A DNA stretch of 64,000 nucleotides from Myxococcales bacterium (lineage in GTDB: Bacteria; Myxococcota_A; Polyangia; Haliangiales; Haliangiaceae), in contig JAQBQE010000063.1 of the NCBI GenBank assembly GCA_028287135.1, positions 1 through 64,000 of the forward strand. The letters are read 5' to 3'. Each line of letters begins with the position of its first letter. The first letter of the stretch is position 1. The notes beneath the pieces are model-generated. The model was not told the DNA's origin. It worked only from the letters and a program-made list of their open reading frames with translations, and searched no databases. Position numbers and translations under genes: made by a program. Below are positions 58,147-63,931 of this stretch, piece after piece.

Positions 58147-58218
58147 CACCTCCGAGGGAACGGAGCTAACCGTCCAGCACACAGCCTCGGGGCGAAGCCC
58201 GGAACCAGCTCTGTGATT

Positions 58219-58240
58219 GGCGGCCTTGGCGCCTTGGCGG
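58219..58240 (+). repeat. GGCCTTGGC short tandem repeat
   Basis: The run GGCGGCCTTGGCGCCTTGGC-GG repeats the nine-base unit GGCCTTGGC twice. It follows the inverted-repeat element and precedes the Fe-S membrane protein start by about 65 bases. Such TTGGCGG-type runs look like a dispersed repeat, by impression. Confidence 0.4.
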
Positions 58241-58306
58241 TCCATCCTCCGAGTGCGTACGGCTCGAACGCGCCACGGCGAGTCCTCCGGTGACTGCGAG
58301 CCTCCT

Positions 58307-61174
58307 GTGAACGACACCCCCAAGAAGAAGCTGCCGATCGCTGACGGCGGCAAGCCGGCATCGAAGGCGGACAAGACGCGCGCCGGCGGCTGGACCGCGT
58401 TTACCGACGGCGGCACGGCTCCGCGCTGGGTGATCGCGGCGCGGATCGTCCTCGTGCTCGCGCTCATGGCCACGATCCCGACGATCCTCGGCGTCGAGCA
58501 CGGCAATCGCCTGCTGTGGACCGTGTGCATCGCGGTGCTGCCGTTCTTCTGGATGACGTTTGGCTATCACCTGTGGCGACGGCTGTGTCCGCTCGCGGTG
58601 ATGGGCCAGATCGGTCGGCTCGTCGGGCGGCCCGGCACGCGCAAGATGGGCGACTGGATGGGCAAGAACTACGTGCTCGTCCAGCTCGGCCTGATGATCA
58701 TCGCGCTGACGCTGCGCCTGGTGGCGACCAACGGCAGCGATGTCTGGCTCGCCGGATTCCTCGGGGTTGTCGTGGTCGCAGCGATCGTCACGAGCTTCGT
58801 GTTCGGCGGCAAGACATGGTGCAACTTCATCTGCCCGGTCGGCCTCGTCGAGAAGATCTACACCGAGCCCGCCCGCGGCTCGTCCGCGCCGGAGCTGACC
58901 TCGCAGTGCGCGCCGTGCGTCGCGTGCAAGAAGCATTGCCCCGACATCGATCTCGAGCAGGGCTACTGGAAAGAGGCCACGGATCGGCCGCGCCGGATCG
59001 CGTACTTCGCGTGGCCCGGCGTCGTCGCCGCGTTCTACGTCTACTACTACCTCGTCGCCGGAGACTGGAGCTACTACTTCTCGGGCGCGTGGGCCTACGA
59101 GCGCGATCTGCCGGCGCAGATGATGGCGCCCGGATTCACGTTCGCGCCCGCGATCCCGCGGATCGTCGCCGCGCCGCTCACGCTCGTCGCCTTCGGGCTC
59201 GTCAGCTTCCTCGTGTTCTCGCTGATCGAGCGTGTGGTCGTTCGGGTGCGGACCCGGACGCTGACCCGCGAGACCCCGGCGGAAGCACGCGCGCAGATCA
59301 CCCAGCGGATCCGCCACGGGATGCTCGCGCTGTGCGGGCTCGTTGCGTTCAACGCGTTCTATCTGTTCGCGGGTCAACCGTCGCTCGCGAAGCTACCGGC
59401 ATGGGTCGTCACGGGTTGGGGCCTGATCGTCGTGTTCTCGTCGACCGCGATCTTCGTCCGCCGGATCACGCGCCGCGAGGACCAGCACGTTCACGAGAAG
59501 TTCGCGCAGAAGATCCTCAAGAAGTGGGAATGGGGGGACGCTCCGCCGTCCGACGACCTCAAGGACATCTACCTCCTCCACACCGAGCGCACCAAGCAGC
59601 GCGAGGCGCGCCTGCGTGCCTACAAGGAGACCGTGCGCGAGATGGTGGCCGATGGCCTGGTCACGCGGAACGAGATGCAGCTGCTCGACAGCCTGCGCGC
59701 GCAGCTCGGCATCTCCGACAAGGATCACCAGAAGATCATGGGCGAGCTGTCGAGCGAGGAGCGCCAGCTGTTCGACCCGGCGTACCAGGGCTCGGCCGAG
59801 ACCCGGCTGGTGCGCGAGCAGTACCGCAAGGATCTGTCGCGGCTCGTCGTCGAGGCCGCGCGCCTCGGTGTCGCGCCGACGCCGTCGAGCTTGCAGACGC
59901 TACGGACCGAGCGTGGCGTGGGCGCGGCCGAGGAGGCCAACGAGCTCGCGCTGCTGCTCGCGCCCGGCGGACCGATCGCTGCGCTCTACGACGCCGAGCT
60001 CGCGTCGATGGGACAGCTCGTCGCCGCCACCGAGGCGGCGAATCACGCGAACGCGGTACAGGCCGAGTCCGCCAGCCTGTCGCTGCTCCGTCACCTCGCG
60101 AAGCATCGCGCGCACGAGCATGCGATCCACGCGCTCGGCGTGCTCGCCGTGATGACCCAGCGGCCCGAGGTCGAGCAGGTCCGCGCCCAGGCTGCGACCC
60201 GTGGCCTCGTGCGCCTCGGCTCGCTCGATGCGCTCGACGGTGTGGATCCCGCGCTGCGCCGTCCGCTCGTCGAGATGCTGACGCGACTGCAACGTGGCGA
60301 CGAAGCACCGATCGCGCCAGGGCCGTTCCTCGCCATCGCCGCGGACTCTTCGCGACACCTGCGGGCGGTGTGCGCGATGCTGCTGTCGCGATTCGACGAT
60401 GAAGCCGCGCGCGCGCAGCTGCTGGTGATGATCGGCGATCCGGAACCGATCGTCCGCGAAGCCGCCGTCCGCGCGATGGGCGCGAAGAGCCGGCTGACCC
60501 GTGATCTCCTCGCGAAGGTCCTCGACGATCCAGATGCCCGCGTACGCCACGCTGCGGTGCGCGCGGTGTCGGGCACGACGTCGAACGAGCTGCCGGCGCT
60601 CGATCCATCGATGTTTGCGCAGACCAAGGCCGGCGTCGGCAAGCCGGGCGTCTACGCGACGCTGGATGCGAATGCGGCGATGGCGTCGTTGACCGTGATC
60701 GAGAAGATGATGCTGATCCGCCAGGTCCCGATCTTCGCGGAGCTCGACCCCGACGATCTCGAGGAGCTCGCCGACATCGTCGAGGAGCGCCGGATCGAGC
60801 CGGGCCGTGACGTGTTCCGAGAGGGCGATCCAGGCGACGCCGTGTACCTGATCGTGAAGGGCGAGGTCACGGTGTTCGTCGGCGGGATCGGCGATCGCCC
60901 GGAGCGCGTGCTGTCGCAGCTCGGCGCCGGAGCGTGCATCGGCGAGATGGCGGTGCTCGATGCCTCGCCGCGCTCCGCGACGGTCCGCGCCAACGAACGG
61001 ACCCGGATGCTCCGGGTGCCCGGCGAGGGCTTCAAGCGCGTGATGTCGGAGCGGCCGGAGATGTCCCAGGCGATCGTCGCCGAGCTGGTCAAGCGGATGC
61101 GCGGGATGATGGCGCAGGGTCCCCATCCTGCGATGTCGAACCCCGCGATCCCGGTGCAGTCACCCGAGGAATGA
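58307..61174 (+). CDS. Polyferredoxin-type membrane protein fused to HEAT repeats and a cNMP-binding domain
   Basis: This 955-residue protein starts at GTG, the codon before which the sequence is non-coding repeat. The membrane part (about 40-380) resembles NapH/NosR-type 4Fe-4S proteins, with RRLCPLAVMG (Cys94), TWCNFICPVG (Cys172, Cys176) and CAPCVACKKHCP (Cys201, 204, 207, 211). A cytoplasmic helical region follows. HEAT-like repeats (about 680-755; DPEPIVREAAVRAMGAK; DPDARVRHAAVRAV) precede a cyclic-nucleotide domain (about 805-935; GEMAVLDASPRSATVRA, including the phosphate-binding Arg). It may sense redox or cyclic nucleotides. Its N-terminal TM and Fe-S motif arrangement is firm; the function is unknown. 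Confidence 0.88.
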   Translation: MNDTPKKKLPIADGGKPASKADKTRAGGWTAFTDGGTAPRWVIAARIVLVLALMATIPTILGVEHGNRLLWTVCIAVLPFFWMTFGYHLWRRLCPLAVMGQIGRLVGRPGTRKMGDWMGKNYVLVQLGLMIIALTLRLVATNGSDVWLAGFLGVVVVAAIVTSFVFGGKTWCNFICPVGLVEKIYTEPARGSSAPELTSQCAPCVACKKHCPDIDLEQGYWKEATDRPRRIAYFAWPGVVAAFYVYYYLVAGDWSYYFSGAWAYERDLPAQMMAPGFTFAPAIPRIVAAPLTLVAFGLVSFLVFSLIERVVVRVRTRTLTRETPAEARAQITQRIRHGMLALCGLVAFNAFYLFAGQPSLAKLPAWVVTGWGLIVVFSSTAIFVRRITRREDQHVHEKFAQKILKKWEWGDAPPSDDLKDIYLLHTERTKQREARLRAYKETVREMVADGLVTRNEMQLLDSLRAQLGISDKDHQKIMGELSSEERQLFDPAYQGSAETRLVREQYRKDLSRLVVEAARLGVAPTPSSLQTLRTERGVGAAEEANELALLLAPGGPIAALYDAELASMGQLVAATEAANHANAVQAESASLSLLRHLAKHRAHEHAIHALGVLAVMTQRPEVEQVRAQAATRGLVRLGSLDALDGVDPALRRPLVEMLTRLQRGDEAPIAPGPFLAIAADSSRHLRAVCAMLLSRFDDEAARAQLLVMIGDPEPIVREAAVRAMGAKSRLTRDLLAKVLDDPDARVRHAAVRAVSGTTSNELPALDPSMFAQTKAGVGKPGVYATLDANAAMASLTVIEKMMLIRQVPIFAELDPDDLEELADIVEERRIEPGRDVFREGDPGDAVYLIVKGEVTVFVGGIGDRPERVLSQLGAGACIGEMAVLDASPRSATVRANERTRMLRVPGEGFKRVMSERPEMSQAIVAELVKRMRGMMAQGPHPAMSNPAIPVQSPEE

Positions 61175-61195
61175 GATCTGTTACGCTTCAGAGCC

Positions 61196-61477
61196 ATGAA
61201 GCGAGACACTGCTCAGACGATCTTCCGGACCGTGGTGTTTGCTGGCGCGATGCTCGGCTCCGGCTGCAGCAAGAAGCCCACGACGCCGTCGACGATCCCG
61301 ACGAACTCCAACCCGACGGAGACCGGCACGCAGCCGGACACCGCCACCCCAACGGGCACCGACACTGCGACACCTGATCCGTGCGCGAGCGCGGATCCGT
61401 GTGCCGGCGGCGAGCGTCCGCGTGGCACCGACGACGACGGTGGTGGCGGCACGGGCCGCGGCTTCGTCCTGTCCTGA
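61196..61477 (+). CDS. Lipoprotein with a GRGFVLS C-terminus, first of a pair
   Basis: This 93-residue protein has a signal with IFRTVVFAGAMLGSGC (lipobox Cys24). The middle is Pro/Thr-rich low complexity (PTTPSTIPTNSNPTETGTQP). A short segment with ASADPCAGGERPRG precedes the exact C-terminus GTGRGFVLS. The second gene of this pair shares both the signal core (RTVVFAGAML) and the C-terminus (TGRGFILS). The conserved end suggests a recognition or anchoring motif. It is 22 bases after the Fe-S/cNMP protein and probably on the same transcript. Confidence 0.72.
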   Translation: MKRDTAQTIFRTVVFAGAMLGSGCSKKPTTPSTIPTNSNPTETGTQPDTATPTGTDTATPDPCASADPCAGGERPRGTDDDGGGGTGRGFVLS

Positions 61478-61490
61478 GTCGAGCGCGAGC

Positions 61491-61530
61491 CGTGAACGTG
61501 GCCGACCGGCCGTGATCGTGGCCGTGCACC
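61491..61530 (+). repeat. 20-base tandem repeat between the two paralogous lipoproteins
   Basis: CGTGAACGTGGCCGACCGGC (61491-61510) and CGTGATCGTGGCCGTGCACC (61511-61530) match at 15 of 20 positions. The stretch 61478-61666 holds no gene. Confidence 0.4.
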
Positions 61531-61666
61531 TGAGCGTGACCGCCCCCAAAGACCGTCGTCGCTGAGGGTCCAGGGATCCAGCTCGATCCCACGGGCGATC
61601 CGGCGGCCGCCCTGGCATTTGGGGGACTCCGGTGTCATCGTCCCTGACTCACGGGGGGACGGAACC

Positions 61667-62059
61667 ATGACGAAGCGCGCAGGAGTCTCGAACACGATCT
61701 GGCGGACGGTGGTCTTTGCGGGCGCGATGCTCGCCACCCCGCTGGTCACGGCATGTGGTGGCTCTGACAAGAAGCCCGCCACGATGCCCGAGGCCCCTCC
61801 CGCCGCGGATCCGGCGGCGGACAAGGCGGCTGCGGACCAGGCGGCCGCGGATCAGGCTGCGGCGGATCAGGCCGCTGCCGACCAGAAGGCCGCTGCCGAC
61901 CAGAAGGCCGCGGACGACAAAGCGGCCGCCGACCTGCTGGCCGCCAAGGAAGCCGAGGAGAAGGCGCTCGCCGACGCAGCCGCTGCCGAGGCTGCGAAGC
62001 CCCGCCCGCGCGCGAACACGAAGAGCAAGTCGACCGGTCGCGGTTTCATCCTGTCGTGA
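61667..62059 (+). CDS. Lipoprotein with a GRGFILS C-terminus, second of a pair
   Basis: This 130-residue protein has a strong purine-rich ribosome-binding site (GGGGGA). The signal IWRTVVFAGAMLATPLVTAC (lipobox Cys30) is close to that of the first paralogue. The middle is Ala/Asp/Gln/Lys-rich, a long helix of AADQA repeats that is quite different from the Pro/Thr-rich middle of its paralogue. The end TGRGFILS matches. Its stop overlaps the GTG start of the diiron protein (GTGA), so the two are translationally coupled. Confidence 0.78.
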   Translation: MTKRAGVSNTIWRTVVFAGAMLATPLVTACGGSDKKPATMPEAPPAADPAADKAAADQAAADQAAADQAAADQKAAADQKAADDKAAADLLAAKEAEEKALADAAAAEAAKPRPRANTKSKSTGRGFILS

Positions 62060-62952
62060 GCACCGAACCAGCCATCGACGTTCTCGGCGACATCGAGCCG
62101 CAGGGTCGCGACGATCAGTACGAGCCGACCAGCCCGTGGTGGTTGTCGGGTACCCCGCTCGAGTCCGAGCATCATCGGCTGATGCGGCGGCGCACGGTCC
62201 ACATCCCGTGGACTGAGACGACCGCCGAGAAGCTGACCGACGCCGAACGTGCACGGCTCGCGGCGACCTGGATGCGGAGGTCGGAAGCCGAGTACCTCGC
62301 GGTCTCGACGTTCTCGGTCCTCGCGATCGATCTGGTCGCTGCACGCGCACCGGCCGACGTGCTTTCGCTGTGCCTGCGTGCCGGGATCGACGAGATCCGT
62401 CACGCAGAGATGTGCATCCGCATGGCGCAGATCTACTCGGGCAAACAGAACCTGCCGCCCCCGGGGATGAGCTCGCTGCCCGATGATCCGACGCGGCCGA
62501 AGCTGCACCAGGCGCTCGCGAACACGATGCTCGTGTCGTGCGTCTCGGAGACGTACGCGACCACCGTGCTGTCGGCGACGCGCGATCTCACGACCGACCC
62601 GACGGCACAGGCGGTGCTGACCTCGATCTACTCGGACGAGGTCATGCATGCGCGGCTCGGCTGGTCGTACATGCGCCACGCGATCGAGATCGGTGGCCAG
62701 GGCGTGATCGACGCTGCCGCGGCGATGTTGCCGCGCGCGCTGCGTGGCGTCGCCAACGTCGTCGAGGCGGAGCGCCCCGTCGGCGAGGTAACCACCGCCG
62801 TGCGCACGCATGGCCTGATGACACCCGCCGAGGAGCGCGTGATCTTCTCGACCTGTGTTCGCGAAGTCCTGGTCCCAGGGTTCGAAGCACTTGGCATTCC
62901 CGTCGGCAGCGCGCTCGACGATTACGGAGACACATGGGCGCACGCAGCCTGA
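62056..62952 (+). CDS. Ferritin-like diiron protein
   Basis: This 298-residue protein has a ferritin-like four-helix bundle with the diiron ligand pattern. Glu79 (RRSEAEY), then Glu113-x2-His116 (DEIRHAEM), Glu165 (CVSETYATTV) and Glu195-x2-His198 (SDEVMHARLG) match E...ExxH...E...ExxH. It is thus a non-haem diiron oxidase or oxygenase-like protein or a metal store. No signal peptide was seen, so it acts in the cytoplasm. It is coupled to the second GRGF lipoprotein and overlaps the next gene. Confidence 0.82.
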   Translation: MSTEPAIDVLGDIEPQGRDDQYEPTSPWWLSGTPLESEHHRLMRRRTVHIPWTETTAEKLTDAERARLAATWMRRSEAEYLAVSTFSVLAIDLVAARAPADVLSLCLRAGIDEIRHAEMCIRMAQIYSGKQNLPPPGMSSLPDDPTRPKLHQALANTMLVSCVSETYATTVLSATRDLTTDPTAQAVLTSIYSDEVMHARLGWSYMRHAIEIGGQGVIDAAAAMLPRALRGVANVVEAERPVGEVTTAVRTHGLMTPAEERVIFSTCVREVLVPGFEALGIPVGSALDDYGDTWAHAA

Positions 62953-63539
62953 GCTTGTTCGCACTCCCTGCCCTCGCGCTGCTCGCAGGCTGTCCCGCAC
63001 CGAAGCCGGCGGCGCAGCCCGCCATGGCAAAGACCATGGCCGAGCGCGTGGTCGCCGACTTCGAAGCGGCCGTGAAGACCAGCAAGGAGTCGTACGTCGC
63101 CTTGTTCGACTTCGCCGCCGTCGGCGAATTCGAGATCCTGCTGCATCGCTACGATCTCAACGGCCGGCTCGCGAACATCACCGAGGACGAGAAGGCGCAG
63201 TTCTCCGCGGAGGATGGCACCCCGTATCCCGCGGAGCGCGAGCGACGCAACGTCGGCAACTTCTACAAGATCCTCGGCCAGCGCACCGTCGGTACGGGCG
63301 GCTGTGTCGCGGGCGAGCCGCGAACGCAGTACGGCACGCTGCTCGGTCAGACCTACGAGGAGCTGCCCGACGGCACGCCGCCGGCCTACGAGACCCTGCG
63401 TACGCACGTCAATGGGTGGCTCGCGCGTGGCGGCGTGATCGGCATGCGCTGCCAGGGGGGCAAGGGCGGTCTCGCGCTGGTGTTCACCGCCAGTGATCAC
63501 GCACGCGGGTACGACCTGATCACGATCTACGACGACTGA
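62934..63539 (+). CDS. Lipoprotein of unknown function
   Basis: This 201-residue protein has lipobox PALALLAGC (Cys20). It starts 19 bases inside the diiron gene, with GGAG eight bases before the ATG. The mature part has a helix (MAERVVADFEAAVKTSKESY), then a beta-rich half (AVGEFEILLHRYDLNGRLAN; GLALVFTASDHARGYDLITI). Two cysteines are in GTGGCVAG and GMRCQGG. No family was recognised. The strong overlap implies joint expression with the diiron protein. Confidence 0.75.
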   Translation: MGARSLSLFALPALALLAGCPAPKPAAQPAMAKTMAERVVADFEAAVKTSKESYVALFDFAAVGEFEILLHRYDLNGRLANITEDEKAQFSAEDGTPYPAERERRNVGNFYKILGQRTVGTGGCVAGEPRTQYGTLLGQTYEELPDGTPPAYETLRTHVNGWLARGGVIGMRCQGGKGGLALVFTASDHARGYDLITIYDD

Positions 63540-63577: not shown

Positions 63578-63931
63578 ATGCTCAAAGCGGTCCTCCTCAC
63601 GACGGTCCTGTTCCTCGCGGCTTGCTCCGGCAAGAAGGACGAGGAGCATGTGCTGCAGCCCGAGCCGGCGCCGATCACCACCGGATCTGCGACGGCGACG
63701 CCCGGTTCCGCAGCGACCGGGTCGGCAACGGCCGAAGCACCGCTCACGGGCTCTGGTTCCGACGCTGTCGGATCTGCCGCAGCCGGTTCGGGATCTGCGA
63801 CAGGTTCCGGATCCGCGACAGGTTCCGGATCTGCGACGGGATCGGGATCTGCGACAGGTTCGGGTTCCGCCGCCTCGCAGGGTTCGGCAGCGGGCTCGGC
63901 GGCTGCGCCGGCGGCACCACCGACGAAGTAG
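63578..63931 (+). CDS. Small lipoprotein with Gly-Ser-Ala-Thr repeats
   Basis: This 117-residue protein has lipobox TVLFLAAC (Cys16). After a short charged segment (GKKDEEHVLQPEPAP) the chain is low complexity: GSATGSGSATGSGSATGSGS repeats and an Ala/Pro tail. The repeat is mirrored in an 18-base DNA tandem array. It is probably a flexible spacer or surface tether. The region after its stop, to the window end, shows no gene. Confidence 0.72.
   Translation: MLKAVLLTTVLFLAACSGKKDEEHVLQPEPAPITTGSATATPGSAATGSATAEAPLTGSGSDAVGSAAAGSGSATGSGSATGSGSATGSGSATGSGSAASQGSAAGSAAAPAAPPTK
63785..63874 (+). repeat. 18-base tandem repeat in the GSAT lipoprotein gene
   Basis: Five copies of an 18-base unit (consensus GGTTCCGGATCTGCGACA) encode the repeated GSGSAT. 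Copies differ at up to five positions, mostly at synonymous sites. Copy number may vary between strains by slippage. Confidence 0.8.

Follow-up and report, generated by a model that had tools for sequence, protein, structure and literature searches.

A conserved tail on exported proteins of a myxobacterial group suggests a tail-reading system that includes a ferritin-like diiron protein

What connects two short lipoproteins that share both their ends with the ferritin-like diiron protein encoded directly after them? The question arises in a stretch of 64,000 nucleotides (the window), the start of contig C34 of a Kofleriaceae-like MAG of 4.84 Mb that is 59.5% complete. A sequence-only reading of this locus had proposed that the common tail of the two lipoproteins is recognised by something, perhaps involving the diiron protein. 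The comparisons described here suggest that the tail, a conserved signal core, the diiron protein and a companion lipoprotein may together be a system, so far undescribed, for reading protein tails and probably for modifying them chemically.

The features of the locus are collected in Table 1. Both tail lipoproteins have a [WF]RTVVFAGAML core and a lipobox near the N-terminus (...IFRTVVFAGAMLGSGC... in the first, ...TIWRTVVFAGAML...LVTAC in the second) and end in GRGF[VI]LS, with TGRGFVLS and STGRGFILS, respectively, immediately preceding the stop codon. The low-complexity middles are unrelated, that of lipoprotein 1 being rich in Thr, Pro and DPC and that of lipoprotein 2 in AADQ. Lipoprotein 1 has no match in Pfam; its orthologues occur at L004, L005, L006, L007 and L012, among others, and the orthologues of lipoprotein 2 at L004–L007 have similar AAD/AE-rich middles. 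The GTG start of the diiron gene overlaps the TGA stop of lipoprotein 2 as GTGA (62056–62059). The sequence-only reading had described these features, and they hold: the common core and tail by sequence, ORFs and a genome-wide pattern count, the Pro/Thr-rich and AADQ-rich middles by sequence, and the overlap at its position. In that count, a degenerate 24-base tail pattern occurred exactly twice in the 4.84 Mb genome, both times here, and reversed-pattern controls gave none. Third codon positions in the tail genes vary whilst the residues do not, so that selection acts on the protein.

Table 1. Features of the locus, with positions in the window and the basis of each assignment
Feature	Position	Strand	Basis
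Fer4_5/HEAT/cNMP-binding protein, 985 aa	58217–61174	same direction as cassette	Pfam
Tail lipoprotein 1, 93 aa, low-complexity Pro/Thr/DPC-rich middle	61196–61477	+	ORF; orthologues
Signal core IFRTVVFAGAML of lipoprotein 1, then lipobox ...GSGC	61220–61255	+	sequence
C-terminal tail GRGFVLS of lipoprotein 1	61454–61474	+	sequence; kept in 36 proteins
Tail lipoprotein 2, 130 aa, AADQ-repeat middle	61667–62059	+	ORF from ATG at 61667; orthologues
Signal core IWRTVVFAGAML of lipoprotein 2, then lipobox ...LVTAC	61697–61732	+	sequence
C-terminal tail GRGFILS of lipoprotein 2	62036–62056	+	sequence; kept in 36 proteins
Ferritin-like diiron protein, 298 aa, without signal peptide	62056–62952	+	ORF, fold, ligands
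Span of six diiron ligands E79, E113, H116, E165, E195, H198	62290–62649	+	E...ExxH...E...ExxH, homologue alignment
Companion lipoprotein, 201 aa (...RGYDLITIYDD)	62934–63539	+	overlaps diiron gene; genome co-occurrence

All five genes from the Fer4_5/HEAT/cNMP protein to the companion lipoprotein run in one direction (58217–63539). The first of these, which joins a Fer4_5/4Fe-4S membrane part to HEAT repeats and a cNMP-binding domain in an unusual combination, is a frequent neighbour of the cassette formed by the tail genes, the diiron gene and the companion, and lies outside the cassette itself. On the other side, a lipoprotein with a long GSGSATGSG-type repeat (63578–63931) lies between the cassette and a flanking lipoprotein held in common with genome G045.

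The tail is not confined to the two genes of the window. Across the order, 36 distinct proteins with varied middles carry both signal core and tail, which bears out the idea of a family that conserves its ends around a freely varying middle. The tail residues G, R, G, F and L are invariant in 36/36, in a search that allowed any residue at R and F; an R-x-R lies within the 34 residues preceding the tail in every protein, the core W/F-R/K-T-V-V-x-A-G-A-M-L is nearly invariant, and none of the 36 has a Cys in its last 10 residues. Among 318 genomes of the class the tail pattern gave 18 matches versus one for its reversed control; in 14 of the 18, all from the family to which the window belongs, the protein also has the signal core described above. 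The matches in G016, G031, G287 and G315, which lack the core and fall in very short or unrelated frames, were rejected as chance level, like the one control match.

Orthologues of the diiron protein were sampled at 13 loci from genome contigs and in 20 genomes of the order at E<1e-100. In nearly all cases one to three tail proteins are encoded directly upstream, joined to the diiron gene by start/stop overlaps or short gaps; in relatives the neighbourhood of the tail genes includes the diiron gene in nearly every case. The sequence-only reading had named two outcomes as fatal to its idea, a tail limited to these two genes and neighbourhoods that never contain a diiron gene; both were checked, and neither applied. 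Locus L006 has three tandem tail proteins, one with an ordinary signal peptide in place of the lipobox; signal peptides were called here by a hydropathy and lipobox rule rather than by a trained predictor.

Tail patterns allowing AGY serine codons and TAG stops revealed a further set of proteins away from the cassette. Eleven tail proteins are unlinked to a diiron gene (G048:C13, G062:C316, G063:C135 and C523, G064:C41, G065:C64, G066:C1282, G067:C321 and C472, G068:C68 and C92), a count to be read with the uneven completeness of the MAGs in mind, since contig breaks can separate a copy from its diiron gene; nine of the 11 have both ends on the contig, and G046, where a linked copy looks unlinked for this reason, was left out. 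The fetched stretches of about 3 kb around the 11 hold no diiron homologue, and the protein at G065:C64 lies 43 kb from the diiron gene. Wherever the N-terminus is intact the same signal core is kept. In three of these proteins the middle is a domain recognised by Pfam, DUF1573 (E 4e-19) or PEGA (3e-9 and 1.2e-5), and the others are DUF1573 relatives or contain DPC-rich stretches. Two (L200 in G066 and L201 at G067:C472) have no signal, their starts being chimeric or cut. The unrelated-looking N-terminus of L200, a DUF1573-type tail protein, resembles by eye the start of a biotin carboxyl carrier protein and is probably a misassembly.

These proteins bear on two simple explanations. One is paralogy: a single lipoprotein family, once duplicated, would have kept its ends through common ancestry and would need no reader. 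Most copies do sit in one bacterial family, and the tandem copies are clear paralogues. However, the same two ends enclose unrelated middles, including two different Pfam domains; the tail does not vary along with the freely changing middles, and genomes without the diiron gene have no tail. This explanation is largely refuted and we consider it very improbable. A simple genome-wide sorting tag, the simplest reading, was also rejected as unlikely because there are only one to three tail proteins per genome, found only in genomes with the diiron gene.

Presence and absence were compared among 33 order-mates, 20 with and 13 without a diiron orthologue. Tail proteins occur in 19/20 of the former versus 0/13 of the latter (Fisher p 2e-8, which is overstated as related MAGs are non-independent), and the earlier proposal that the tail lipoproteins go with a ferritin-like diiron gene is thereby upheld. 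The companion lipoprotein is found in 20/20 versus 0/13. The flanking Fer4 gene is distributed differently. It persists, with 73–79% identity, in the congeners G045, G047 and G049, all of which lack the tail/diiron/companion set and have no ORF with the signal core after the Fer4 gene. In G045 the site is empty, the next gene encoding a lipoprotein homologous (E 1e-20) to one beyond the set in the window genome. On account of the joint presence and absence, the independent Fer4 gene and the empty site, the tail proteins behave together with the diiron gene and the companion as a single cassette, and we hold with high confidence that the three are functional partners. Together with the tail proteins built on other folded domains away from the locus, the joint occurrence with the diiron gene also makes a trans-acting reader of the tail very likely; the earlier suggestion that something recognises the tail gains to this extent from the unlinked DUF1573 and PEGA proteins and from the co-occurrence.

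The reader might sit on the envelope side. On that account the companion, or another envelope factor, sorts or anchors proteins by the tail, while the diiron protein has another function, such as acting on a small molecule. The companion's presence exactly matches that of the diiron gene, and it is itself a lipoprotein. Its structure model is confident and has no clear fold relative (Foldseek best E 0.6), the weak NTF2/MlaC-like arrangement that it resembles being matched at a Z of about 6. An envelope reader would, however, account neither for the translational coupling between the tail and diiron genes nor for the short signal-bearing partners found directly upstream in other diiron clades (see below), and we regard it as decidedly unlikely.

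The leading candidate is the diiron protein. Its sequence contains no signal peptide and it is apparently cytoplasmic. It is predicted to form a helical bundle with E, ExxH, E, ExxH ligands, as in ferritin-like diiron oxidases/oxygenases, and all six metal ligands are kept in 132/132 homologues (position 195 is E in 131 and D in one). An AlphaFold2 model (mean pLDDT 74.5) matches PaaA, aldehyde-deformylating oxygenase, VlmB and R2lox with Z 16–19 over about 200–240 residues; since the Foldseek E-values are weak and helical bundles often score well, we take these matches together with the ligands as indicating a fold class and not a function. No Pfam or NCBIfam model scores above its cut-off. 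Against AurF (PF11583; cut-off 29.6 bits) the protein scores 14.2 bits and its closest relative tested 28.3 bits, and against DUF455 (PF04305; cut-off 34.3) the protein scores 16.1 bits, all below. A Pfam search of the five genes around the tails found no DUF692.

These properties are consistent with a mechanism in which the tail is a recognition tag for a cytoplasmic diiron oxidase/oxygenase, putatively modifying exported proteins before secretion, and to this reading we give an even chance. We infer both acts of the diiron protein (reading the tail and modifying it), their timing and the companion's role as follows. The cassette of one to three tail proteins, diiron protein and companion would constitute the tail-reading system. 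Exported proteins would be tagged at both ends, by the core W-R/K-T-V-V-x-A-G-A-M-L and the tail R-x-R ... G-R-G-F-[VI]-L-S, and the diiron protein would stay in the cytoplasm, made with its nearest substrate through translational coupling. Since it is cytoplasmic by sequence, and the tail proteins apparently leave by Sec-type signals, the two would meet in the cytoplasm before export. There the diiron protein may recognise the seven-residue tail and putatively modify it oxidatively; given the oxygenase-type fold, oxidation is the natural act, and hydroxylation within G-R-G-F-x-L is one candidate reaction. The modified protein would then leave by the lipoprotein or ordinary signal-peptide route, and the companion may come into play afterwards in the envelope, either acting on such proteins or working with them. 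One genome counts against modification: G053 (L003; 94% complete) has the diiron gene and companion with no detectable tail protein, and its Fer4 gene abuts the diiron gene.

The wider family of the diiron protein bears on both its partnership and its place of action. The class yielded homologues in 201 of 318 genomes, and the phylum sample in 163 of 379. A short signal-bearing, lipoprotein-like ORF lies directly upstream of 59/89 non-fused diiron genes versus 20/137 background genes, several of the 20 being pieces of this very operon. The type of partner follows the diiron tree, with 26 changes versus 78 in shuffles. In clade A (support 99/95) the partners have the GRGFxLS tail; three clade-A rows (L058, L072 and L076) escaped the automatic signal test, and their labels in the tree were assigned by eye. 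Clade B partners end in RGFSGAxRARA and similar tails, and clade C partners in CC...C...GPFVPP or WGPPxPP, with RALRAA-type signals and often in tandem copies. Clade-C tail lipoproteins lie directly before the diiron genes at L067, L069, L079, L081, L083–L085, L087, L089 and L090, and further loci are L098, L101, L102, L105, L148 and L240. Clade D, in which the diiron genes are those closest to AurF (L095, L099, L103, L108, L109, L114 and L120), has very short lipoproteins that conserve a [KR]xF[KRH]xxVVxG signal and not the C-terminus, a second point against the modification reading.

In 43 of 132 examined homologues the diiron domain follows a lipoprotein signal and a low-complexity stalk on one fused chain, often with a CCY...C.GRP[FLY] segment between stalk and diiron domain. 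All fused proteins fall within one clade (support 100/100; examples are L088, L091, L093, L104, L110–L113, L115, L122, L124 and L127), which is large, often has several copies per genome and, for the members tested, has no Pfam or NCBIfam match above cut-off. At L151, within this clade, the lipoprotein part and the diiron domain are encoded by separate genes that overlap by 4 bases, the result of a recent fission or of a frameshift.

The fused clade keeps alive an alternative in which the tail docks on the diiron protein, the lipoprotein tethering or escorting its partner as a split version of the fused chains. The diiron domain of the fused clade is apparently exported, which fits tethering better than cytoplasmic modification; the low-complexity middles of the tail proteins are stalk-like; and a twin arginine, counted as a motif, is present in 21/43 fused and 15/26 clade-C signals, compatible with Tat export of a folded partner. 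By the same motif, clade A signals have no consistently placed RR before the signal core and, as the diiron protein has no signal of its own, co-export is hard to explain there. The unlinked tail proteins, moreover, bear folded domains (DUF1573, PEGA) and not stalks only. Homology between the clade-C tail and the fused linker (CCY...C.GRPF) was not supported, a profile comparison giving an hhalign probability of 0.1 and no significant homology; the counterpart of the fused GRPF may just as well be SGTPL, at the N-terminus of diiron proteins encoded by a gene of their own. Docking or escort is, in our judgement, unlikely.

Under the modification reading, the clades may be variants of one theme. 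We put forward, tentatively and at somewhat short of even odds, that ferritin-like diiron oxygenases are a tail-modification class across Myxococcota, reading short C-terminal tags on diverse exported proteins; with similar reserve, the tags would be GRGFxLS, GPFVPP-type and others in the sister clades, and the pairs would range from separate genes to a fused chain. Most clades of the diiron family appear with their own short exported partner or fused to one. If the diiron protein does modify the tails, one more enzyme family would join the few that install modifications via a short C-terminal tag, a genetically encodable seven-residue tag would become available, and a large unnamed diiron protein family spread through Myxococcota would gain its first functional lead.

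Literature searches on ferritin-like partners of tailed lipoproteins in myxobacteria found none. Several known systems share parts of the arrangement. In fold (Z 16–19), E...ExxH...E...ExxH ligands and a sub-threshold AurF match the diiron protein resembles PaaA, aldehyde-deformylating oxygenase, R2lox and AurF/CmlI/VlmB; unlike these ferritin-like diiron oxygenases, its genetic partner is an exported tail protein and not a small-molecule pathway. The MYXO-CTERM/myxosortase system likewise pairs a C-terminal tag on exported Myxococcota proteins with a dedicated processing factor (here a candidate) (PMC11980579). The MYXO-CTERM tag combines an invariant Cys and a transmembrane helix with an Arg-rich end and is found on dozens of proteins per genome (PMC11980579), whereas GRGF(V/I)LS tails are polar, have none of these three elements and occur on one to three proteins per genome. 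Bufferins and oxazolins, which are copper-binding RiPPs, also start as signal-peptide precursors modified by an MNIO iron enzyme before export, but their modified residues are cysteines (in EGKCG motifs for oxazolins), and the shared tail here has no such motif.

The closest parallel in layout is with the DAG-RiPPs of the ChrH-DybH subfamily (MNIO/DUF692; PMC12636315), in which the MNIO iron enzyme DybH recognises lipoproteins, and also proteins larger than 30 kDa, by a C-terminal motif of seven residues (PMC12636315). In both cases an iron-dependent oxidative enzyme, here a putative one, is encoded beside signal-bearing precursors, and a lipoprotein or ordinary signal is combined with a conserved short C-terminal motif and a free remainder, including in larger proteins. 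The differences are that the DAG-RiPP enzyme is a DUF692 TIM barrel and ours a ferritin-like helical bundle, that their motif (CPxCxMG) is cysteine-based whilst GRGFxLS contains no cysteine, and that here the signal core is also conserved. As the enzyme family is different, the likeness to DAG-RiPPs would be one of a way of working and not of membership.
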